Shown: positions 1 through 12,253 of the stretch, piece by piece
How positions within the stretch are numbered: the first letter of the stretch is position 1
Layout of the letters: the number at the start of each line of letters is the position of its first letter
Assembly: GCA_019510125.1 (NCBI GenBank)
Contig: JAEKKX010000022.1
Span: 1 to 64,000, forward strand
Reading direction: 5' to 3'
DNA length: 64,000 nt
From: Lysobacterales bacterium
GTDB taxonomy: Bacteria; Pseudomonadota; Gammaproteobacteria; Xanthomonadales; Xanthomonadaceae
Made by a program: the position numbers and the translations under genes
The notes under the pieces: generated by a model
The model's database searches: none
What the model was told of the DNA's origin: nothing
Seen by the model: the letters and a program-made list of their open reading frames with translations, nothing else

Positions 1-2342
1 CGAGCTTGTCCGAGTATTCGGCCACGCACGCATCGAGGATCGGATCGAGTTTGTCCCGGTCTGCGCCGCTCACGTACAGCGCCACCAAGTCTTCCACCTG
101 CTGCCAGCTGTACACCTGCTGCCCATCGAGTTCGGCCTTCAGGTCGTGCAGTTTGTTGGCGTCGGTTTCGCCAGTCTGGATGGTCGCGCGGTAGTAATCC
201 TGGAACGCCGCCTTCACCGCTTCGGAGTTGTCGGCGAAGTCGAGCACAAAGGTGTCGTGCTTCTGTGGATGCGCCCGGTTCAGGCGTGACAGGGTCTGCA
301 CCGCCAGCACGCCCGCCAGCGGCTTGTCCACGTACATCGTGTGCAGCAAGGGTTCGTCAAAGCCGGTGACGAACTTGTTGGCGACGATCAGGAATCGATA
401 CGGGTCTTGCTTGAGATTGGCCGGAATGTCCTTGCTCGGAAACCCGTTGAGATCGGCCTCGGTCTTCTTCTGCCCGCCAATCTCGAAGTCGCCCGAATAC
501 GCCACGATGGCCTTGTACGGGCTCTTGATCTGCATGAGGTAGTCCGACACCTCGCGCCAGTAGTCAATGGCCCGCGCGATGCCGTTGCACACGATCATCG
601 CCCGCGCCTTGCCACCGATCTTCTGTTTGCCCGCCACCTGCGCGATGAAGTGGTCGACCATGATCTCGGCCTTGCGGCGGATGGCCTTGTCGTGCGATTC
701 GACGTAGTGACGAATCTTCTTCAGCGCCTTCACCTTGTCGAATTCCGGGTCGTCCGCCACCGTCTTGGCCACTTGGTAGAAGCTGTCGTAGGTGGTGTAG
801 TTCTCCACTACGTCGAGGATGAACTTCTCCTGGATGGCCTGCTTGGTGGTGTAGGTCAGTTCTTCGGGCGAGCGGAACTGCACCTTGTCGCCGACGAGAG
901 TCTTCTCGCCGAACAACTCCAGCGTCTTGTTCTTGGGTGTGGCCGTGAATGCAAAGTAGCTGGCGTTGACCAGCAGCTTGCGCGATGCGATGCGCTTCTC
1001 GATTTCGGCATTGACCGCATCCTGCGTGCTGTCCTCCTCGAACTCCTCCTCGGCCGCCTTGCCGCCGAGGGCTTCGTGCATCCGCGCCGTGGTCTTGCCG
1101 CCTTGGCTGGAATGCGCTTCGTCGATCAACAGCGCGAAGCTCTTGCCGGAGAGGTCGCCCAGCTCATCGAGGATGAACGGGAACTTCTGCACCGTGGTGA
1201 CGATGATCTTCTTGCCACGGCGCAGGTACTCGCGCAGCTCCTGCGCGTTGTCGGAGTGGCCGAAGATCGCCGCTACGTGGTCGTAGCCCTTGATGGTGCG
1301 GGCAATCTGGCAGCTCCACCAATTGGTGCGCCAGCCAGGCAATGGTGTTGCTCTTGCCGCTGCCCGCCGAATGCTGGATCAGATAGCGCTTTCCCACTCC
1401 GTCGGTATGGGCGCGGCGCAGCAGGGCACGCACCGCGCGCAACTGATGGAAGCGCGGGAAGATCTGCTTGCGCTTCTTGCGTTTCTTGCCACTGGCATCC
1501 GCTTCTTCCTCTTCTACCACCTGCGCGTAACTCTCGATGATGTTGGCCAGCGACTCGCGGGTCAGCACCTGCTTCCACAGGTAATCGGTCTTCAGACCAT
1601 CCGGGTTGGGCGGGTTGCCCGCGCCGCTGTTCCAGCCCTGGTTGAACGGCAGGAACCAAGAGGCTTTGCCCTTCAACTCAGTGCAGAACGCGGCCTCCGC
1701 GTCATCGACCGCGATGTGCGCCACGCAACGGCCCAACTGGAACAGCAGTTCCTGCGGGCTGCGCGTGGTCTGGTACTGGACAATGGCGTCGGCCAGGGTC
1801 TGCTTGGTCAGCGAGTTTTTCAACTCAAAGGTCAGCACCGGCAGGCCGTTGATGAAAATCGCCAAGTCCAGTTCATTGCCGGAATCGTTGCTGTAGCGCA
1901 GCTGCCGGGTGACGCTGAAGATGTTCTTGCCGAAGGCATCCGCTGCGACGGCGTTGCCCGGCGTGGGCAGCAGCTTGTACAGATCGACGTGCACCGGCCC
2001 ATGACTCACACCCTTGCGCAGTACATCGACCACGCCGCGCTTGGTGATCTCGCCTTGCAGGCGGTGCAGAAACTGGGTGCGCTTGATGCCGTCCACCGCC
2101 AGCTCCAGTGTTTCCACCGCCTTGGGCTGGGTGGTCTGCAGGAAAGCCAGCAACTGCGCCACATCCAGCGCCACATCGCGGTTGTAGTCCGTGGGCTTGC
2201 CCTGCACGTAGCCGTTGTGCGTGGCAGCAAAGTCCGTGGGAGCCAACTCATGGCTGTACTCGGGCTGCGGCACGCCGGTCAGGCCACGCACCACACGCGC
2301 CTCGAACCAGCGCTCGCTGGTGTCAGTCTTCGCCATCGCCAT
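1..2342 (-). pseudogene. hsdR: Type I restriction enzyme HsdR, frame-disrupted and cut by the window edge
   Basis: HsdR is the motor and nuclease subunit of a type I restriction enzyme. The frame from 2342 carries the N-terminal nuclease domain with the PD-(D/E)xK signature (ELDLAIFINGLPVLTFELKN) and runs to Walker A (SAGSGKSNTIAWLAHQLV). At about 1306-1316 this frame stops making sense. Homologous sequence resumes in another frame as QIARTIKGYDHVAAIFG and stays open to position 1, with the DEAH box (LLIDEAHSSQGGK) and motif III (FTATP) visible. The stretch normally found between 'AHQLV' and 'RQIxxTIK', including the 'TDRRVLDRQ' motif, is missing, so about 25 codons appear lost together with the frame. 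Its start overlaps the end of the NADAR-HsdS gene by 20 bp. Either the subunit is dead or this is an assembly error; the rest of the gene is not eroded, so the damage would be recent. Confidence 0.85.
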
Positions 2343-4419
2343 CCTCCTCTACGGTCACATCATCTGGGTCATCGCCGAGCGCGGCCAGCGCCGCGTCGTC
2401 CACCACGTCCTCCGGGCCGGGTTGCCAGCCGCGCACGTCCACTTGACCGGTGACCACATCGGCAATCTGACGGTCGCGGTATTCGCGGATCAGCTTGATT
2501 TCCTCTTCGGTGCGGGCAATCGCGTCATCCAGCGGCTTGCATTCGTCGGTGATCCAGCGGCAGATGGCTTTTTGCTCTTCGACGGGTGGTAACGCGATGA
2601 CTGCGTTCTTCACATCGTGCTTACCGAGTGCAAAGCGCGTGACGCCGGTGGCGAGAACATGGAACTGCTGCGCCGTGCGCGCCGAGCCGATGGCGCGAAA
2701 CAGGAACTCTCCCAACACGCGATCCGGTACGGGGCGCAGCAGACCAAGGTGATACGCGCAAACCACGCCGGGCAAATCCTCCGGTACCCACGCGGGTACA
2801 CCGATGTCGTCCGGCGTTTCGGAATCTTTCGTCAGAATGACATCGCCCGCTTTCAGCGTCAGGCGGGCGATCTCCGCCGCCGTCGCTGTGGCGCGCATCA
2901 AGTCCATATCGTCGGTGATGCGGTCATTCTTGTAGACGTCGGTGTAATTGCACAGGCGCACCGGTGTTTCGTGGTCGTGTGAATGTTTGTCCACACCGCT
3001 GAAGCGCACGTCCGCGACGTGCTTAATGAGGGCTACTTCCCAATGCTCCGGCACCTCACCCAGCCATTCGATGCCGGACGGCTTCAGCGCCACCGATGCG
3101 TCGAGGCCACGTGTTACGGCGTGGTCGATGATGCGCAGCTTTTGTTCGGTGAGCAGCTTGATCAGATCCCGTTTGGCCTGGATGAAGCGGGCGATGTGCG
3201 CGTCCTGCGCTCGGAGGTAGGCGACGATCTGGTCTTGCTCGGGGCGCGGGGGCACGAGCGAGGGCATCTGCTTAAAGGACTCCCAATACAGCCGGTTGCG
3301 ATCCGCCACGATGCCGCGTGAGAACTTGTTGACCTCCTGCATGTACGCCGCCGTGCGGAACAGGTAGCTGTAGTAGCTGCTGTTGGCCTCGTCGTAGGGT
3401 TTCACCACGACATAGGCCGGGCTGACCAGCCCGTCAACTGGCGCGGGTCCGACCGCGCCTTGCCACATCCGCATCATGTTGTAGGCGATGTCGCCTTTGG
3501 CTGCGCGTTTGTACTTCTCCTTCTGGCTCATCACCTGCTTGCGCTTCAGGTTTTCCATGTCACGCACACGCACGCCGGTGCGCAGCGACACTTCCAGAAT
3601 GGGTAGATCGGGGAAGCCCATTTCGACGCGATGACCGAATAGGCGGCCATTGCGCAGCACTTGCCAGCTTTCAGGTATGTGCGGTACCCAAGGAAGCCCC
3701 GATGCGCGAAAGGTTTGATTTACCGTCTTGGCTGGAACAACCGGTGCCGGATCAGCTACAGCCTCGACTGCGATGGCTGTGTCCGCACCGAATAGGGAGC
3801 CCTGCTCCTGTACTTCGGCGGCCTGCGGCGTTGGCAGTCCCACTGCCACTTCAATCGCCTGCCCGAACAGCAGGAACTGTGGAATGTCCGGCGGTGCGAT
3901 GTCCAGGGCTGCGTCGCGCCCTTGCTGCTTCACCTGCTCGCGCAACTCCATCAGTAGCCTGCCCAAAACGTTCATGCCGACCAGCGTGTCGCCGTCGTCA
4001 ACGACCTTGGCTCCCCAAAAATCGTCCTTGCGCGATTCCTCGACGATGGGTCGCTCGCCAGTCTTCAGCAGCAACGTACTGAAGGCGTTCCAGTTGTTGG
4101 CCAGCTTCATGCGCAGGCTCCAGCGCATGATGCGCACGCGCACCTGATCCCAATCCGGGCGCGAATCCTTACGGTAGGGCTTGCTCCGCATTTTGGCCGT
4201 CATAGGGCTGATCTGGCCGATGATCAGCTTCTGCACGTCGGGAAGATGCGGAAAGCGGCAGGCCTGATACAGCGCCTCGGAGGTTAGTATCCGTACCCCA
4301 TTAACATGGATCGGGTAGCCCCCCGCCATGTTGGATAGGCCACCAAACGGTTCGTCGGTCTTGAGGAAGACGACGCTGTCCTTGCGGCTGTAAGTGCGAC
4401 TCTGATCTCTTCCGCTCAT
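2323..4419 (-). CDS. hsdS: NADAR domain fused to type I specificity subunit HsdS
   Basis: This 698-residue protein joins two functions. Residues about 14-165 are a complete NADAR (YbiA-like) domain, with GGLSNMAGGYPI near 26, the SEALYQACRFP motif near 48, RPDWDQVR near 87, FWGAK near 134 and VGMNVLGRLLMELRE near 147. NADAR proteins handle ADP-ribose-type compounds, and some remove ADP-ribose from guanine in DNA. After a low-complexity linker (about 166-237) comes a full HsdS: target recognition domain 1 (about 240-390), a conserved helix (about 390-440), domain 2 starting at GIEWLGEVPEHW (about 449-610), a second conserved helix, and an acidic tail. An open frame reaches up to 4872, but that extension is composition-driven nonsense overlapping the previous gene. 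The ATG at 4419 sits in a TGATG stop-start overlap, implying translational coupling. That the specificity subunit carries the NADAR domain to chosen DNA sites is my inference. Confidence 0.88.
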   Translation of the reverse strand: MSGRDQSRTYSRKDSVVFLKTDEPFGGLSNMAGGYPIHVNGVRILTSEALYQACRFPHLPDVQKLIIGQISPMTAKMRSKPYRKDSRPDWDQVRVRIMRWSLRMKLANNWNAFSTLLLKTGERPIVEESRKDDFWGAKVVDDGDTLVGMNVLGRLLMELREQVKQQGRDAALDIAPPDIPQFLLFGQAIEVAVGLPTPQAAEVQEQGSLFGADTAIAVEAVADPAPVVPAKTVNQTFRASGLPWVPHIPESWQVLRNGRLFGHRVEMGFPDLPILEVSLRTGVRVRDMENLKRKQVMSQKEKYKRAAKGDIAYNMMRMWQGAVGPAPVDGLVSPAYVVVKPYDEANSSYYSYLFRTAAYMQEVNKFSRGIVADRNRLYWESFKQMPSLVPPRPEQDQIVAYLRAQDAHIARFIQAKRDLIKLLTEQKLRIIDHAVTRGLDASVALKPSGIEWLGEVPEHWEVALIKHVADVRFSGVDKHSHDHETPVRLCNYTDVYKNDRITDDMDLMRATATAAEIARLTLKAGDVILTKDSETPDDIGVPAWVPEDLPGVVCAYHLGLLRPVPDRVLGEFLFRAIGSARTAQQFHVLATGVTRFALGKHDVKNAVIALPPVEEQKAICRWITDECKPLDDAIARTEEEIKLIREYRDRQIADVVTGQVDVRGWQPGPEDVVDDAALAALGDDPDDVTVEEDGDGED

Positions 4420-5453
4420 CAGAGGTCGCCTCCGGTCAGATCGGCAAACATCCTTCTCATCGCCGTCTGCGTGTTCGTGGTTCGCGGGAAAAGCGGATAC
4501 CACGGCGCATCCACCCAGAACGCCAGCGGCGCGTTGTTGGGGCAATTGCGGTAGGTGACGATGAGCGAGCCGAAGCCCAGCGTTTCCAGCGTCATGTGCC
4601 CCAGGGGGCGCTGGACGGCACTGAGGTTGGGGCAAATCTGCCGAATGTGGACACCGGCTTTCAGGAACTCCTGTTCCAGCAGAATTTTGGCCGCGTCGCT
4701 GGAGAACAGACCCGCAGCGCCGGGGTTGCCAGCGGCTCTGAGCGTGGGCGGGTACCGCATGGCAGCCACATGGGCTTGCACCGCAGGATCGTTCGGGATC
4801 GCCGTCGGGCGCAGCACGTCTGACGTTGCGCTGTAGGTCTTTCTGTCCTCCAGCTCGATGGCGTGCCACCACGTGATATCGATATTCTTTCCCGAACCTC
4901 GGATGACTTCTTGAATCTTGGTGTTCGCGTAATACCGTCCGCCACTGTGCTCTGCGATGCAGATCACATGCACCTTAGCCTGCGCGGGCGCGTTGCCACC
5001 AATCCATCCTTCCAGATCACGTCGCACGCGGTTGCCGGTGAAAATGCCGTCATCCAAATAGATGAAGACTTCGTCACCTTGCCCGCAGTCGTCGATGCCG
5101 AATCCGTGCTCATCTTCCAGTTGCTCGGAGAACAGGGCGAGCATGTCGGTTTGGCTGCTGCCGCCGCCCTGAATATCGAGGAAGCTGGCGGATCGCCAGA
5201 ACTTGTCGGGTCTGTCGCCGGTGAGCTTCTGAGTGCGCATCGCGCCACGGAGGAACTTGGCCACGTCCTCTTTCGAGAAATAGATTTTCTTGAGTACGTG
5301 GTCGATCTCTTGGAGGATGGGCAGCTGCACAGCAGCGTCGAATTGCTGCACCCAATGCTCGATGTGGTCGGGGATGGGCCGCGGGAGCGACCCGCCCCGA
5401 TAGTCCTGAATCGTGTTGGCGATGGACGCCAAAAGGTCGATACGTTGGCTCAT
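4419..5453 (-). CDS. Phosphoribosyltransferase-like protein (PRTase-CE type) in an R-M operon
   Basis: The protein has 344 residues. Residues 131-143 read IYLDDGIFTGNRV, the acidic-acidic-x(3)-T-G loop that binds PRPP in type I phosphoribosyltransferases. A second conserved-looking stretch is FLDIQGGGSSQTDML at 91-105. This pattern matches the PRTase-CE family predicted from comparative genomics to belong to biological conflict systems. No signal peptide or membrane segment is seen. The gene overlaps hsdM by 4 bp (ATGA) and the NADAR-HsdS gene by a TGATG junction, so it is embedded in the R-M operon and probably made in step with it. No experimental function is known to me for this family. 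It could act on a nucleotide or a base, or as an effector. The family call is fairly sure, the role is unknown. Confidence 0.75.
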   Translation of the reverse strand: MSQRIDLLASIANTIQDYRGGSLPRPIPDHIEHWVQQFDAAVQLPILQEIDHVLKKIYFSKEDVAKFLRGAMRTQKLTGDRPDKFWRSASFLDIQGGGSSQTDMLALFSEQLEDEHGFGIDDCGQGDEVFIYLDDGIFTGNRVRRDLEGWIGGNAPAQAKVHVICIAEHSGGRYYANTKIQEVIRGSGKNIDITWWHAIELEDRKTYSATSDVLRPTAIPNDPAVQAHVAAMRYPPTLRAAGNPGAAGLFSSDAAKILLEQEFLKAGVHIRQICPNLSAVQRPLGHMTLETLGFGSLIVTYRNCPNNAPLAFWVDAPWYPLFPRTTNTQTAMRRMFADLTGGDL

Positions 5454-7840
5454 GCGGGCACGCCTCCCACGATCTTGTCTAGCAAGCCTTCAGTCTGCTG
5501 CTCCAGCTTGACGATGTCGGCGCGGATTTCTGCCAGCGTGCGCAGGGGCGTGGGCTTGTAGAAATAGCGGGCGAAAGAAATCTCGTAGCCGATCAGGGTC
5601 TTGTCCGTGGCGATCCATGCGTCCGGTGCGTGTGGCAGCACCTCGCGGGCGAAGAAGGCGTCAATACCGCCCGGCTCCTTCAACGGCACCTGCTCGGTGT
5701 CGCGCAGCTCGCTGTCGGGCTCGTACTCGACCATGAAGCGATCCTTGCCCACGGTTTCCAGGTACGCGCCGTCGAAGCCGGGCTCGAAGTGTTCCCCTGC
5801 CTTGAGCTTGCTGCGCTTGGCGATAACCGGCGGCGCGGTTTCGTCGCGCCAGCTCACCGCCTTGTAGATGGCCTTTTTCTCCGGCGCGCCGAGCTTGTCG
5901 CCCTGCGCCTTCAGGGCAGCATCGAAGCGGGTGCGGAACTCATTGTGGTCGTCGAACACAGCACTGCCCAGGGCCTGCTGCGCCCGTTGCGCTACCTCCA
6001 TTAGCCCCTTGTCGCGCTGCCACGTCGATACGTCGAGCAGCTTCTTGCGGCGCTTGGCAGGCACGGCCTTGCGTGCGGCGGGTGCTTCACTTTCATCGCC
6101 GCTGTCGCCGTCTTCGCTGTCGTCGTCTTCGTTCTCGTCCTCACCCTTCAGCCACGCCTCGATGGCCGGTTTGCGCTTGGCGAACTCGGTATAAAGCGCC
6201 TCGCCGTGGGTGGCGTAGATCTCGGCGCGCAGCGCCTCATCGCCGGTGGCAAAACGCAGGGGCTCGATGCGTTCGTCGGAGAGTTGGCTTTTCAGTCGCA
6301 GCGGACGCTCGACGGTAATCTTCCAGTAGCCGAAGTCCTGGGTGTCGAACCATTTGGACTGGGCGGTTTCCTGCGCCTCGCCGAGGTAGAGGTCGAGGAT
6401 TCGCTGGATGTCTCCGTCCGAGAGTTCGCAGTTCTTCTTGCCGAGGTTGCGGCGCAGCGGCTGGAACCACTGCGATGCATCGATCAACTGCACTTTGCCA
6501 CGCCGCGCTTCGGCCTTCTTGTTGGCCAGCACCCAGATGTAGGTGGCGATGCCCGTGTTGTAGAAGATGTTGAGCGGCAGGGCGATGATGGATTCGAGCC
6601 AGTCGTTCTCCAGCACCCAGCGGCGGATGTTGCTCTCGCCCTGGCCTGCGTCCCCGGTGAACAGCGCTGAGCCGTTATGCACCAGCGCGATGCGGCTGCC
6701 CAGCGGCGTGTTGTGCTTCATCTTTTGCAGCTTGTTCACCTGGAACATGAGCTGCCCGTCGCTGGAGCGGGTGATGAGCTTGAATTCGGCGTTGCCCGCG
6801 TGGCTGACGATGAAGCGCGGGTCATTGAATTCCTTCTTGCCGCCCATGCGGTCCAGATCGGTCTTCCAACTCTTGCCGTAGGGTGGGTTGGAGATCATGA
6901 AATCGAATTCGCGGCTGCGGAACTGGTCGGCGGACAGGGTGGATTTGTCCGCGCCGCCGACGATGTTCTCGGCCTCCGCTCCTTCGCCCTTCAAGAGCAG
7001 GTCGGCCTTGCAGATGGCGTAAGTTTCGTCGCTGATTTCTTGGCCGAACAGGTGGATGGATACTTCCTTGCCGTGCTGGTCGGCCAGTTCGTGTAGCGCT
7101 TCCTCGGCCACGGTGAGCATGCCGCCGGTGCCGCAGGAGCCGTCGTAGAGCGAATAGGTGCTGGACTCGATCCGGTCGGCCACCGGCAGGAACAGCAGTT
7201 TGGCCATGAGCTGCACCACGTCGCGCGGCGTGAAGTGCTCGCCTGCCTCTTCGTTGTTGTCTTCGTTGAAGCGGCGGATCAGCTCCTCAAACACCGTGCC
7301 CATGCCGTGGTTGTCCAGCGCGGGTAGCTTGATGCGGCCGTCGGCATCCTTCACGGGTAGCGGCGCGAGATTGACCTCGGGGTCGAGGAAGTCGTCGATC
7401 AGGTAGCCGAGGACGTGGGAATCCACCAGCTTCTGGATCTGGTTGCGGAAGTTGAACTTGGTGAGGATTTCCTGCACGTTGGGCGAGAAGCCGTCCAGGT
7501 ACGCAATGAAGTCATCGCGCAGCCGCTGCCCCGCCGCGCTGGCCTTGAGCTTGGCCAGCGTGAACTCCGAGACGTTGTAGAACGCCTGGCCTGCCGCCAT
7601 GCGCAGCGCGCCGTCCTGCTCGGCCACCTTGTGGGTGTCGAGAAACCTCTTGCGCTCGAGCACCGCGTCCTTGGTGGCTTCGAGTACGGCGTCGAGCCGT
7701 CGCAGCACGGTGAAGGGCAGGATCACGTCGCGGTACTTGCCACGTACGTAGACGTCGCGCAGGCGGTCGTCAGCGATGTTCCAGATGAAGTCGGAAATCC
7801 ACTTGATCTGGCTTTGGTCTTGTTGTTGGTTCTTCTGCAT
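5450..7840 (-). CDS. hsdM: Type I modification methyltransferase HsdM
   Basis: HsdM transfers a methyl group from S-adenosylmethionine to adenine N6 at the site chosen by HsdS. The 796-residue product starts MQKNQQQDQSQIKW with the usual N-terminal HsdM helical domain (RLRDVYVRGKYRDVILPFTV). The SAM-binding motif DGSCGTGGM lies at 233-241 and the catalytic NPPY at 318-321. An acidic low-complexity stretch (about 570-600) interrupts the C-terminal half, and the protein is longer than many HsdM proteins. I chose ATG 7840 over the upstream ATG at 7951 because the extra residues do not resemble HsdM and would overlap the preceding gene. It lies 11 bp after the DUF262 gene and overlaps the PRTase-like gene by 4 bp. 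With NADAR-HsdS intact, a working modification enzyme without restriction is plausible. Confidence 0.93.
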   Translation of the reverse strand: MQKNQQQDQSQIKWISDFIWNIADDRLRDVYVRGKYRDVILPFTVLRRLDAVLEATKDAVLERKRFLDTHKVAEQDGALRMAAGQAFYNVSEFTLAKLKASAAGQRLRDDFIAYLDGFSPNVQEILTKFNFRNQIQKLVDSHVLGYLIDDFLDPEVNLAPLPVKDADGRIKLPALDNHGMGTVFEELIRRFNEDNNEEAGEHFTPRDVVQLMAKLLFLPVADRIESSTYSLYDGSCGTGGMLTVAEEALHELADQHGKEVSIHLFGQEISDETYAICKADLLLKGEGAEAENIVGGADKSTLSADQFRSREFDFMISNPPYGKSWKTDLDRMGGKKEFNDPRFIVSHAGNAEFKLITRSSDGQLMFQVNKLQKMKHNTPLGSRIALVHNGSALFTGDAGQGESNIRRWVLENDWLESIIALPLNIFYNTGIATYIWVLANKKAEARRGKVQLIDASQWFQPLRRNLGKKNCELSDGDIQRILDLYLGEAQETAQSKWFDTQDFGYWKITVERPLRLKSQLSDERIEPLRFATGDEALRAEIYATHGEALYTEFAKRKPAIEAWLKGEDENEDDDSEDGDSGDESEAPAARKAVPAKRRKKLLDVSTWQRDKGLMEVAQRAQQALGSAVFDDHNEFRTRFDAALKAQGDKLGAPEKKAIYKAVSWRDETAPPVIAKRSKLKAGEHFEPGFDGAYLETVGKDRFMVEYEPDSELRDTEQVPLKEPGGIDAFFAREVLPHAPDAWIATDKTLIGYEISFARYFYKPTPLRTLAEIRADIVKLEQQTEGLLDKIVGGVPA

Positions 7841-9504: not shown

Positions 9505-10425
9505 CTATCGTTTCTTTGGGCTGATTGGGGCTTGGTAGCCCGGAGCCAGCTTGGCGTTCTCGACGCCGTACAGCGCCAGCGGATCGCTGAGCCACAGGCG
9601 GTACTGTTCTTCCTTGAGCCGATGGTCGGGCGAGCAGTCCACGCTCCAGCGCAGCAGCATGTAGCCCGCGACGGCGGCGCGAACACGCATCCGGATCGAG
9701 CCGTCGGTCATCCCGTAGTCCATCTTGATGATCTCGGGGCGCTCAAGGCGCGGGTGCGGCACGAAGTCCAGCTCGACGATGCGCGTCCACTGGATGTCGT
9801 TGTCCGGACGCTCGTTCGCCTGCGGCTCCTCATCAAGAAGGGTCGGCGCTTCGATGCGCGTGACGACAAAGTCCCGAAACTCCCCGCTCTTGCGATCAAA
9901 GGCCCGGACGTGCCAACGCAGACCGGTGTCCACCAGGGCAAAGGGCACGATGACCCGCTCGGACTCTCCGCTGCTCATCGAGTGGTAGCGGATGGCGACG
10001 GGTCGCTTGGCGTGGATCGCCCGGCAGACCGGGGCCAACACATCCATCCTGGGGTTGCTCAGAGCGGTAGGCGACTCGCACGGCAGCAGCGGCTGCGTTG
10101 CGCCGGTCACGCCATCGCCGAAGCCCAGAGCCAGCGCCGACAGCACGCGCTGCGATGCGTGGTCGAACAGCGGGGAGAACGCCTGCCCGATGCGGTAGAT
10201 CTTGTTGCTGCCGTCGAAGGTGATGTTCTGCGGCGCGATTTCCCGGTACAGCGCCAAATCGCGTGTCGCCCCTGCCGGAGCAACGCCAAAACGGTCGATC
10301 AGGTCGGGGCGGCCAATCTCACCGAAGAAGTAGAGCCGGAAGTCGATGTAGGCCAGCCGCTCGCGCTGGGCGTGGCTCAAGCTCTCAACGCGCTGGGGAT
10401 GCATGGTCAGGTGATCCTCACCCAC
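9505..10425 (-). CDS. WYL-domain transcriptional regulator (BrxR/CapW-like)
   Basis: The 306-residue protein begins with a winged-helix region (AYIDFRLYFFGEIGRPDLIDRF at about 25-46). A WYL domain follows (RPVAIRYHSMSSGE, FALVDTGLRWHVRAFDRKSGEFRDF) and then a C-terminal WCX-like region. This is the arrangement of BrxR and CapW, homodimeric repressors found at the head of BREX, CBASS and R-M operons and thought to relieve repression when they sense a nucleic-acid or nucleotide signal. It is the first gene of the operon, 15 bp before the DUF262 gene. A 15-bp palindrome lies 60 bp upstream and is a reasonable operator. Autoregulation of the whole operon is my inference. Confidence 0.85.
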   Translation of the reverse strand: MGEDHLTMHPQRVESLSHAQRERLAYIDFRLYFFGEIGRPDLIDRFGVAPAGATRDLALYREIAPQNITFDGSNKIYRIGQAFSPLFDHASQRVLSALALGFGDGVTGATQPLLPCESPTALSNPRMDVLAPVCRAIHAKRPVAIRYHSMSSGESERVIVPFALVDTGLRWHVRAFDRKSGEFRDFVVTRIEAPTLLDEEPQANERPDNDIQWTRIVELDFVPHPRLERPEIIKMDYGMTDGSIRMRVRAAVAGYMLLRWSVDCSPDHRLKEEQYRLWLSDPLALYGVENAKLAPGYQAPISPKKR

Positions 10426-10484
10426 GGAAGATGACGGTTAGACCGAAATTGGTTGTTCGATTGCTCATTTCTAGGCAGTTTACA

Positions 10485-10499
10485 TCATCAAATTGATGA
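10485..10499. promoter_or_regulatory. Candidate WYL operator palindrome
   Basis: The sequence TCATCAAATTGATGA has two perfect 7-bp arms around one base. It lies in the AT-richest part of this intergenic region, about 60 bp before the WYL start, where a repressor would block RNA polymerase. No second copy was seen nearby. Confidence 0.45.
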
Positions 10500-10612
10500 C
10501 ATAATACTCTGCGACGGAAGCTGGGGCAATGAGGTATGGCGAGTGAATGCCGGGGTAGTGTGAAGTTGATCGGTTTGCGCTCCTCGCCGTCCAGGATTTC
10601 GCTTGTCGTAAG

Positions 10613-11017
10613 GTGAAGCGTGGAATCGAGATCACTGCCATTCCCTACATCTGCCCCGCAGGCTTCTGGACGATTGGTTACGGCCACTTCTGCGATCCGA
10701 AGCATCCGCCGATCACGGAGGCAGAAGCCGAGGCCTATCTGGCGCGAGATCTGCAGACGGCTCTGGCGGCGACGCTGCGCTACTGCCCTGTGCTGGCCAC
10801 CGAGCCCGAGAGCCGGATCGCGACCATCGTGGACTTCACGTTCAACCTCGGGGCGGGGCGGCTGCAGACCTCGACGCTGCGACGGCGGATCAACCAACGA
10901 GACTGGAGTGCAGCCGCAACAGAGCTGCGTCGATGGGTCTATGGTGGCGGCAAAGTGCTGCCGGGACTCTTCGCGCGACGAGAGGCTGAAATTTCCTTAC
11001 TGGACACCAAAGTGTAG
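10613..11017 (+). CDS. Phage-type lysozyme (GH24), short or N-terminally degraded
   Basis: The 134-residue product contains PYICPAGFWTIGYGH, the signature of phage endolysins of the GH24/RrrD type, followed by the usual helical part (FTFNLGAGRLQTSTLRRRIN, then LPGLFARREAEISLL). The GTG start gives an N-terminus without the signal-anchor of most endolysins. The Glu that should precede the Tyr by about seven residues sits one residue closer (RGIEITAIPY), so the active-site region looks altered. No holin or spanin is adjacent. It lies alone between the R-M operon and the stress-tolerance block and is the only phage-derived gene seen here, probably a remnant. Confidence 0.7.
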   Translation: MKRGIEITAIPYICPAGFWTIGYGHFCDPKHPPITEAEAEAYLARDLQTALAATLRYCPVLATEPESRIATIVDFTFNLGAGRLQTSTLRRRINQRDWSAAATELRRWVYGGGKVLPGLFARREAEISLLDTKV

Positions 11018-11098
11018 GGCATCGAGTTTCTGCGGCGCGAATACTTCATGCATCCCATCGTTATTCTTTGCCGATCCCCAGAAGTCATCAACTCCAGA

Positions 11099-12253
11099 TC
11101 AGGCGCCAGGTTGCAACTCCACGCGCACTTCCCGTGGCTTACCGGCCCGCTCGACTGACAAGACCACAACATCTCCTACCTTTTGGTCGTCAAGCCGTGC
11201 GAGCAGTTTGGCGACATCGTCGACGGGAGCGCCGTCTATGCCTGTGATACGGTCTCCCGGCACGATGCCTTCGGGGCCAACGGTGATACCGCTCAGCCCC
11301 GCCTTTTGCGCCGCTGAGCCAGGGGCGACACGGAGCACAAACACGCCTTGGGTACTGGTCAGTGCCTGCAATCGGCGGTTGAGCTGCTCGTCTACCTCGA
11401 TCCCAAGCGCCGGACGGATGTATTTGCCGGTCTTGATAAGTTGTGGCACCACACGCATGACCGTGTCCACCGGTACGGCGAAGCCAATCCCAGCCGATGC
11501 ACCGGAAGGGCTGTAGATCGCTGTGTTGATGCCGATCAGACGGCCGGCGGAATCGAGCAACGGCCCACCCGAGTTGCCGGGGTTGATAGCGGCATCGGTT
11601 TGAATCAGGTGTTCGATGGTCACTCCGCCAGATTCTCCGGGCAGCGATCGATCTAGCGCGGACACGATGCCGTTGGTGAGTGTCCAATCCAGGCCGAAGG
11701 GGTTGCCGATGGCGAACACCTTTTGTCCCACCTTGAGGTCTGCGCTGGTGCCGACCGGAACGGCGGGCGGGCGCTGGAAGCCGACGCCGATTTTGAGCAC
11801 CGCGATATCGTGTGCCGGACTCACTCCGACCAGCGCGGCTTGGTAATCGCGGCCGTCGGCCAGTTTGACCGTGGCCTCCGACGCCCCCTGAATCACATGA
11901 AAGTTGGTAACGACATGACCGGCGTCATCCCAGATGAAACCCGAACCCGTCCCGCGCGGCACGGAAAAGACGTTGCGCGTCCAGACATCTCGTACCAGTT
12001 GGGACGTCGTGATGTAGACCACCGATCCCCGGGATTTCTCGAACAGTTCGATGGTGGCCTGTTCGTCAGCGGCCAGATCGCCACGCGGCGTGACGGTGCG
12101 CTCAGCGGCTTGGCGCGGGCTGAACCAGGCCTCGATGGCGGGCAGGAACTGCCAGAACAGCATGAGTGCGGCAACGCACGCAGTGATGAAGAGCCACCGC
12201 CGGACGAAATGATCCGGAGCTGGGCGTTGTGGGTAAGGATCGTGGTAAGCCAT
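11099..12253 (-). CDS. Membrane-anchored trypsin-like protease of the DegQ/DegS family (TLST type)
   Basis: This 384-residue protease has one N-terminal membrane segment (about residues 19-40, FITACVAALMLFWQFLP). Its trypsin-like domain has His in TNFHVIQG, Asp in HDIAVLKI and Ser in GNSGGPLL, and a single PDZ domain lies at the C-terminus. The layout fits periplasmic quality-control proteases that cut misfolded envelope proteins. A purine-rich stretch (AAAGGAAC) precedes ATG 12253, and the longer frame upstream to 12484 is an overlap artefact within htpX. It is the last gene of the stress-tolerance block, 23 bp after the M48 protease gene. A deg gene also closes the published TLST/LHR islands. 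Confidence 0.87.
   Translation of the reverse strand: MAYHDPYPQRPAPDHFVRRWLFITACVAALMLFWQFLPAIEAWFSPRQAAERTVTPRGDLAADEQATIELFEKSRGSVVYITTSQLVRDVWTRNVFSVPRGTGSGFIWDDAGHVVTNFHVIQGASEATVKLADGRDYQAALVGVSPAHDIAVLKIGVGFQRPPAVPVGTSADLKVGQKVFAIGNPFGLDWTLTNGIVSALDRSLPGESGGVTIEHLIQTDAAINPGNSGGPLLDSAGRLIGINTAIYSPSGASAGIGFAVPVDTVMRVVPQLIKTGKYIRPALGIEVDEQLNRRLQALTSTQGVFVLRVAPGSAAQKAGLSGITVGPEGIVPGDRITGIDGAPVDDVAKLLARLDDQKVGDVVVLSVERAGKPREVRVELQPGA

Follow-up and report, generated by a model that had tools for sequence, protein, structure and literature searches.

The 64,000-nucleotide stretch analysed here (hereafter the window; positions 1 to 64,000 of contig JAEKKX010000022.1, Lysobacterales bacterium, assembly GCA_019510125.1) begins with a type I restriction-modification operon in which genes for a WYL-domain protein, a GmrSD-like protein, HsdM, a phosphoribosyltransferase (PRTase) of the PRTase-CE family, a NADAR-HsdS fusion and HsdR follow one another on one strand. 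A PRTase-CE/NADAR pair annotated as anti-phage is built into this operon between hsdM and hsdS. The features central to the analysis are as follows.

2323–4419, minus strand: NADAR-HsdS fusion gene, a single open frame of 698 amino acids.
3931–4368, minus strand: NADAR domain, residues 18–163, located by Pfam and residue alignment; R55 occupies the catalytic-lysine position.
3718–3843, minus strand: linker, residues 193–234, with predicted local distance difference test (pLDDT) values below 50, probably disordered.
3790–3804, minus strand: Q-x-S-L-F island (QGSLF, residues 206–210), a candidate DnaN (beta-clamp) binding motif kept in the aligned fusions.
2413–3711, minus strand: HsdS specificity subunit with two target-recognition domains (TRDs), residues 237–669, located by a PADLOC model, an AlphaFold2 model and Foldseek.
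4419–5453, minus strand: PRTase-CE phosphoribosyltransferase, 344 amino acids, DS32_1, located by Pfam and NCBIfam.
5450–7840, minus strand: HsdM adenine methyltransferase, 796 amino acids, with HsdM_N and N6_Mtase domains and the NPPY motif.

A first-pass annotation, made from the nucleotide sequence and its reading frames, had proposed that one frame encodes a NADAR domain, a linker and a two-TRD HsdS, and this is confirmed by Pfam, NCBIfam, PADLOC, AlphaFold2 and Foldseek. Residues 18–163, inside the interval 14–165 where the domain had been placed, match Pfam NADAR (E 4.9e-23; 82.6 bits, cut-off 35.1), residues 8–189 match NCBIfam DS32_2, 'NADAR family anti-phage protein' (277.3 bits, cut-off 240), and residues 237–669 match the PADLOC type I specificity model (E 4.1e-104). 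Pfam Methylase_S covers the second TRD only (residues 521–639); both TRDs are recognized by PADLOC, the structure model and Foldseek. The AlphaFold2 model (mean pLDDT 81.2, predicted template modelling score 0.58) consists of a folded NADAR domain, the low-confidence linker, and then strands with long helices at 392–437 and 613–656. Foldseek matches it to the HsdS structures 1yf2, 2y7c and 5ybb and to the NADAR structures 2b3w and 8bau. The start codon assigned from a TGATG overlap with the stop codon of the upstream gene also holds, with GGAGG located 9 nt 5' of the ATG.

The same fusion occurs in 49 other loci. A chance or mis-assembled fusion was rejected on two grounds: the search for further fusions and their neighbours, suggested in the first-pass annotation, recovered the fusion at 43 of 80 genome loci, these being the top-scoring 80 of 279 relatives by NADAR profile, and the NADAR dN/dS of 0.05–0.14 against nine relatives indicates purifying selection. 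No start codon in the stretch from residue 150 to residue 270 is preceded by a Shine-Dalgarno match of at least 5 nt, and the sole 4-nt match lies at residue 163, the end of the NADAR domain; separate translation of HsdS in the window was rejected, as the linker lacks any supported internal start. In 27 of the 49 other fusions, at least one start codon with a match of 4 nt or more lies between NADAR core and HsdS mark, its position varying (for L040 and L080 the mark was placed too far down, and the scanned stretch enters HsdS). In the clade of L046, L047, L061, L062, L067 and L078 a common ATG with AAGG lies some 29 residues ahead of HsdS, and an extra free HsdS is therefore possible there.

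The gene directly upstream of the fusion encodes a PRTase-CE protein (E 1.9e-59) that scores 415.1 bits against NCBIfam DS32_1, with a cut-off of 250. The two proteins thus exceed both cut-offs for the DS-32 pair (NF053875 and NF053876; RefSeq 'phosphoribosyltransferase-like anti-phage protein' and 'NADAR family anti-phage protein') and follow its order, PRTase then adjacent NADAR, with a 1-nt overlap. They differ from the stand-alone two-gene system in the fusion of the NADAR to HsdS and in the location of the pair within a type I operon. A PRPP (phosphoribosyl pyrophosphate)-type motif, Y-x-DD-...-[TS]G, spans PRTase residues 132–140, and Y132, D134, D135 and G140 are identical in all 59 rows of an alignment of the window protein with 58 of 82 PRTase references, those omitted being mostly near-copies. 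The predicted model is confident (pLDDT 92.7), and its Foldseek matches in the PDB are weak, the best having E 4.2e-3 and none falling below 0.001; uracil and xanthine-guanine PRTases lead the matches. A sequence search of the PDB with the PRTase gave chance-level matches only. Residues 291–329 show weak similarity to PADLOC PRTase_III-A (E 2.4e-9), a likeness to the PRTase effectors of type III-A retrons that is confined to the C-terminal part; in contrast to those retrons, the operon proteins of the window include no reverse transcriptase, and the partner is a NADAR. In E. coli, at least 80% of the stand-alone pair of locus L183 is found in 19 of 5,426 complete genomes, any match in 62, and at least one of ten listed genomes carries both anti-phage names in RefSeq. 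The portion of PMC13092281 available to us, taken as the source of the DS names, mentions NADAR domains and has a PRTase among the validated systems in a figure legend; that portion does not mention DS-32.

The two families are closely paired. Across the 369 genomes of the class, the window's own included, DS32_1 and DS32_2 exceed their cut-offs in the same four genomes, adjacent each time, and 24 further genomes have weaker NADAR matches only. A PRTase match is present at 77 of the 80 genome loci (in L101 the frame has 247 amino acids), and in the other three the contig ends at or close to the NADAR gene. On plasmids each of three PRTase matches adjoins a NADAR. On viral contigs a NADAR match follows that of the PRTase at a distance of 2–67 nt in all 34 PRTase loci; searching with the NADAR profile gives 43 loci, comprising these 34, one cut at the contig start, and eight on phage-like contigs (seven longer than 100 kb) with no PRTase in the stretch examined. 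NADAR without PRTase, and never the reverse, is as expected of a toxin and its antitoxin. Annotated phages have no PRTase match, and NADAR matches in 42 phage records, three of them covering at least 80%.

Near NADAR relatives with no PRTase found nearby occur at the phage or phage-like loci L034, L035, L186, L199, L202, L204, L205 and L206, and are candidate counter-defence enzymes. In Vibrio parahaemolyticus (L033, an 882-kb record) a NADAR ending in QLGFF directly follows a Dam-family methyltransferase gene; there is no PRTase match within the 16.6 kb examined, and pncB and nrdA genes lie nearby.

The NADAR family is joined to DNA-targeting partners of more than one kind. At the 80 genome loci BLAST finds it fused to HsdS in 43, to a DUF1156 methyltransferase in six and to neither in 31. 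Of the 31, three (L084, L085, L108) have a helix-hairpin-helix domain (HHH_3) by Pfam and L101 has one by eye. Six cyanobacterial members have a winged helix-turn-helix (wHTH)-like tail by eye; a Pfam scan of three of them (L082, L086, L089) gave no confirmation. In L068 (4364–15896) a NADAR above the DS32_2 cut-off forms the N-terminal part of a fusion with HmaB, and the gene is flanked by hmaA upstream and hmaC downstream: this PRTase and NADAR cassette is joined to the Hma system (HmaA, HmaB, HmaC) through a methyltransferase subunit in place of the window's specificity subunit. L083 and L098 have the NADAR as a gene of its own, followed by a methyltransferase gene. A quick NADAR tree needs nine label changes for fusion, of which starred branches force only two, and the NADAR-HsdS fusion may have had a single origin or several.

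Type I loci of the same HsdM subfamily provide a natural control. The HsdM query gave 37 listed places in the 369 genomes, 20 of them with E below 1e-200; three of these 20 (the window, L123, L124) have both the PRTase and the NADAR-HsdS, and 17 have neither. Of the 17, L116 ends within HsdS, L133 has HsdM only and L122 has no recognized HsdS; DS32_1 is absent genome-wide in 15, and the other two genomes (G430, G313) have it at another place. Locus L117, one of those with neither, is 86% identical to the window in HsdM and 67% in HsdS, and its HsdS starts about where the linker of the window ends. A quick HsdM tree was built from 62 rows, of which 45 carry both and 17 carry neither. Its starred branches require a minimum of nine changes, and the labels cluster no more strongly than shuffled ones do (15 changes for the real labels, 15.2 after shuffling). 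Together with the both-or-neither pattern, these changes indicate that PRTase and NADAR come and go as one cassette. No HsdM-subfamily operon that was fetched has a PRTase with a separate NADAR. Genome G313 carries a stand-alone PRTase-NADAR pair (L135:3744–6149), followed by a 160-residue frame weakly like HsdM, and elsewhere a plain type I operon of the same HsdM family (L129).

Most of the linker is poorly conserved; the island is the exception. In 42 aligned fusions Q206 is kept in 36, S208 in 35, L209 in all 42 and F210 in 40, while the next-best linker columns are P213 (27), A194 (22) and Q212 (21), and in most columns of 193–233 the top letter occurs in fewer than half of the rows. This alignment omits five of 46 fusion references (the near-copies L023, L038, L045 and L057, and L077, whose odd linker lacks the motif), and L020, L123 and L124 lie outside it. 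The bacterial beta-clamp binding consensus is QL[SD]LF, which we take QGSLF to resemble, and the motif lies in the low-pLDDT linker, where such a motif would be sought. The pattern Q-x-[SDAGTN]-[LM]-[FLMI] occurs in 56 of 92 distinct tails against 3.0 in shuffles, and Q-x-S-L-F in 37 of 92 against 0.09. By class, the motif is present in 39 of 45 HsdS fusions, 11 of 30 stand-alone members, 4 of 6 wHTH, 2 of 4 helix-hairpin-helix and 0 of 7 methyltransferase members. For 75-residue tails and a hexapeptide form the corresponding counts are 39/45, 11/27, 0/6, 1/4 and 0/7, which differ because some members carry the motif only near the C-terminus; in four of the six wHTH-tailed members the island is near the far C-terminus. 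Controls have it in 0 of 9 YbiA-like NADARs, 0 of 61 HsdM and 2 of 14 plain HsdS proteins (inside the protein). Among PRTases it occurs in 27 of 93, of which 24 share a single site around residue 100 that is predicted to be helical.

Of the 22 distinct tails of PRTase-linked NADARs on viral contigs, 16 have the motif (1.0 in shuffles; roughly seven of the 22 come from loci already counted above), including the C-terminal forms QSLSLF and QTMELF, and stand-alone members such as L183, which is above the DS32_2 cut-off, end in GQSLSLF. It is found in 0 of 6 PRTase-less phage tails, L206 having QIDIF, and many misses are near-variants such as QPELF, QSELF and QRDFF. The fusion to a DNA-reading subunit and the short clamp-like tag suggest that the NADAR enzyme acts on DNA.

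Key residues were taken from the part of the NADAR structure paper at hand (PMC11543638) and mapped by alignment in 96 rows; L033–L035, omitted from this count, agree with the family in E48, R55 and E127. The residues that contact ribose and phosphate are conserved: E48, K76, W90, E127 and W135 in all 96 rows, R94 in 95 and D132 in 94, with K80 as Lys in 92 and Arg in four. At the catalytic-lysine position, matched by spacing from the E. coli C7 NADAR to R55, all 96 family members have Arg, whereas all nine YbiA-like controls have Lys. Neither the family nor the YbiA-like controls keep the Tyr that stacks on adenine in the ADP-ribose complex. Against the E88, K95 and D171 of the C7 protein that mark DarTG1, the window has E48, R55 and E127, the Asp of DarT1-linked NADARs being Glu throughout the family. 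Among solved structures, the best match to the NADAR profile is E. coli YbiA (E 1.7e-26), a riboflavin-intermediate N-glycosidase with the same Glu; the score against TIGR02464, the YbiA N-glycosidase model, is 72.9 bits, narrowly under the cut-off of 73.7. The window protein differs from YbiA in the Lys-to-Arg change, the C-terminal extension with the motif and the DNA-targeting partner. YbiA's substrate bears ribose 5-phosphate, and a putative maker of phosphoribosyl N-glycosides next to a YbiA-related N-glycosidase would form a coherent writer–eraser pair.

The reading that we tentatively favour, at less than even confidence, builds on what was observed: the two domains, the order of the genes, their tight pairing, repeated fusion to DNA-targeting proteins, the conserved motif and the retained active-site residues. 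In this reading the locus is a DS-32 cassette, inserted between hsdM and hsdS, of a PRTase effector and a DNA-tethered NADAR eraser. The PRTase would use PRPP to put a 5-phosphoribosyl group on a DNA nucleobase (or another nucleic-acid amine), the adduct would harm replication, and the NADAR, a YbiA-related N-glycosidase, would remove it. HsdS and the clamp-like linker motif would keep the eraser on the host's own replicating DNA, and incoming phage DNA, copied without the eraser, would stay poisoned. By analogy with DarT1 and its NADAR, the NADAR would be the immunity part and the PRTase the effector. A bolder form, in which PRTase-CE puts 5-phosphoribosyl on DNA bases, the NADAR rides on the sliding clamp and on DNA-modification enzymes to erase it from host DNA, and self is told from non-self by which DNA the eraser travels on, is possible at low confidence. 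To our knowledge no enzyme attaches 5-phosphoribosyl to DNA bases.

Several observations weigh against this model. The motif is missing from all seven methyltransferase fusions and, by the strict pattern, from 19 of 30 distinct stand-alone tails; in wHTH types it is absent from all six 75-residue tails and is found only near the C-terminus. Kinship among the sequences inflates the contrast with shuffles. The absence of the island from PRTase-less phage NADARs would also fit docking to the PRTase. The Foldseek matches of the PRTase are weak, and it could make a free nucleotide instead. The toxin-like asymmetry rests on near relatives, because the PRTase-less phage NADARs scored below the DS32_2 cut-off (165–231 bits against 240 in eight tested, the Vibrio one included), and no full-member NADAR without PRTase occurs in the 369 genomes. 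The PRTase frame beside the NADAR in L111 has only 70 amino acids. In the HsdM tree only the PRTase side is independent, since most of the 45 rows were picked through the NADAR.

The main rival to the clamp reading of the island is that Q-x-S-L-F docks the PRTase (or HsdM), which we regard as doubtful. The near-constant presence of a PRTase at the genome loci is compatible with docking, as is the lack of the island, by the strict pattern, in all nine distinct PRTase-less phage or plasmid tails (one counted twice, as L034 and L186). However, the seven methyltransferase fusions have a PRTase yet no island and therefore speak against docking to it; the letters vary as they do in clamp motifs (QLSLF, QSDMF, QINMF, QPALF, QSLSLF, QTMELF), the island sits near the far C-terminus in four of six wHTH-tailed members, and the PRTase-less L033 and L206 have similar ends. 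Somewhat doubtful, too, yet a serious rival to the favoured model, is a guard or backup function, in which NADAR-HsdS keeps the PRTase inactive on HsdM-HsdS until a phage inhibitor of the methyltransferase, for example a DNA mimic, frees it and causes death or arrest. The fusion of NADAR to DNA-modification subunits in two kinds of host system, HsdS in type I and the DUF1156 methyltransferase (HmaB in L068), argues for a guard, as do the further defence genes (SIR2-HerA, Schlafen, GmrSD) embedded in operons of this type. It does not readily accommodate the 31 of 80 NADARs with neither HsdS nor methyltransferase match, about ten of which have helix-hairpin-helix or wHTH-like tails, the stand-alone E. 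coli-type pair, or the separate NADAR genes beside methyltransferases in L083 and L098, and it leaves the conserved NADAR active site unexplained unless the NADAR also erases. The confidences placed in these readings overlap because the docking and guard alternatives can each hold together with parts of the favoured model.

A signalling role is likewise a serious rival, though it appears rather unlikely: the PRTase would combine PRPP with a free base into a nucleotide-like toxin or signal, the NADAR would degrade this product, and the DNA-binding fusions would only position the sensor. Classic PRTases do use free bases, the best weak fold matches are to uracil and xanthine-guanine PRTases, and, in the portions of the articles at hand, conflict-system PRTases are proposed as nucleotide makers (PMC5512222) and phage NADARs are argued to clear soluble ADP-ribose derivatives (PMC9503650); a soluble product, however, needs neither recurrent DNA-targeting fusions nor a clamp-like motif. 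The first-pass annotation had read the fusion of NADAR chemistry to a DNA-addressing subunit as pointing to site-directed removal, reading or guarding of a base modification, with ADP-ribosyl-guanine in mind. The idea of site-directed removal is partly supported: action on an adduct in DNA is probable, NADAR being fused also to DUF1156 methyltransferases and helix-hairpin-helix domains; the substrate does not fare as well, and removal of ADP-ribose from guanine at HsdS sites is improbable. NADARs of two different classes act on ADP-ribosylated guanine, according to the available part of PMC11543638, and 8bau, the ADP-ribose complex, is a structural match of the fusion model. By sequence, however, ADP-ribosyl-guanine is the less likely substrate because the partner is a PRTase that is not DarT-like, Glu replaces the DarT1-type Asp, Arg replaces the catalytic Lys and the adenine-stacking Tyr is lost. 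A DarT partner was looked for and rejected: the five operon proteins scanned with three libraries include no DarT-like transferase, and PRTase-CE stands in its place. The likeness to DarTG1 (DarT1 and its NADAR antitoxin) lies in a transferase adjoining a NADAR that may erase its product; the difference is that the transferase is PRTase-CE and not an ADP-ribosyltransferase, along with the two active-site replacements. The Phytophthora NADAR, also with Glu, removes ADP-ribose from guanine (PMC11543638, same part), and therefore the residue argument shifts the odds without excluding that substrate. Equally improbable is a passive fusion, with neighbouring genes read through and no joint function. 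In its favour, un-fused cassettes exist, other defence genes accumulate in related operons and some fusions have a possible internal HsdS start; against this, the fusion is kept in 43 of 80 loci over wide divergence, the linker island is sharply kept, and PRTase with a separate NADAR is absent from the fetched HsdM-subfamily operons.

The remaining genes of the operon are listed here.

1–2342, minus strand: hsdR, broken, with 74 bp missing near 1309, a frameshift and the 3' end cut by the contig edge.
7852–9489, minus strand: GmrSD-like (DUF262) gene upstream of hsdM, by domain scan.
9505–10425, minus strand: WYL-domain protein, by domain scan, a possible regulator.

Coordinates give overlaps of 4 nt between HsdM and PRTase and of 20 nt between NADAR-HsdS and HsdR. 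The operon resembles type I restriction-modification systems in its HsdM with NPPY, two-domain HsdS and hsdR gene in order, and differs in the added PRTase gene and NADAR domain and in the broken hsdR. Relative to the intact copy of Brachymonas chironomi (L036), whose NADAR segment is 100% identical to the window's, the 74-bp gap shifts the hsdR frame; L036 and other relatives have long HsdR frames. The gap may be a true loss or an assembly error. Because hsdR lacks these 74 bp, restriction is probably off in this genome, and the suggestion that the NADAR acts during restriction is doubtful here. No tRNA, as an integration mark, is present in the window, and just past the gene island, at 10613–11017 on the plus strand, lies a frame that by eye resembles a phage-type lysozyme. 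Related operons hold other insertions: several defence modules are stacked within the type I operon of G091 (L020:3008–6540 and 9806–11272), where a SIR2-HerA pair separates hsdM from the PRTase and a Schlafen AlbA_2 protein precedes hsdR, and a 598-residue GmrSD_N protein lies between hsdM and the PRTase in L046 (6114–7910; Pfam on this locus only), and likewise in L047, L054, L078 and L093.

The first-pass annotation knew of no experiment on such a fusion. Among the matches listed, no title or abstract start concerned a NADAR-HsdS fusion or a NADAR with a clamp, and no literature combining NADAR, type I restriction and phosphoribosyl was found; the un-fused pair, however, already carries the name of an anti-phage system. 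The analysis offers a mechanism lead for this named pair, whose chemistry was not found described in the literature searched. A possible writer and eraser of matching chemistry, together with DNA-addressing proteins and a clamp-like tag, points to replication-fork DNA as the site of action. Type I and Hma operons act as carriers for other defence modules. If the proposed mechanism is true, phosphoribosyl would join the DNA marks used in immunity, and a defence system could spare host DNA without sequence-specific methylation.

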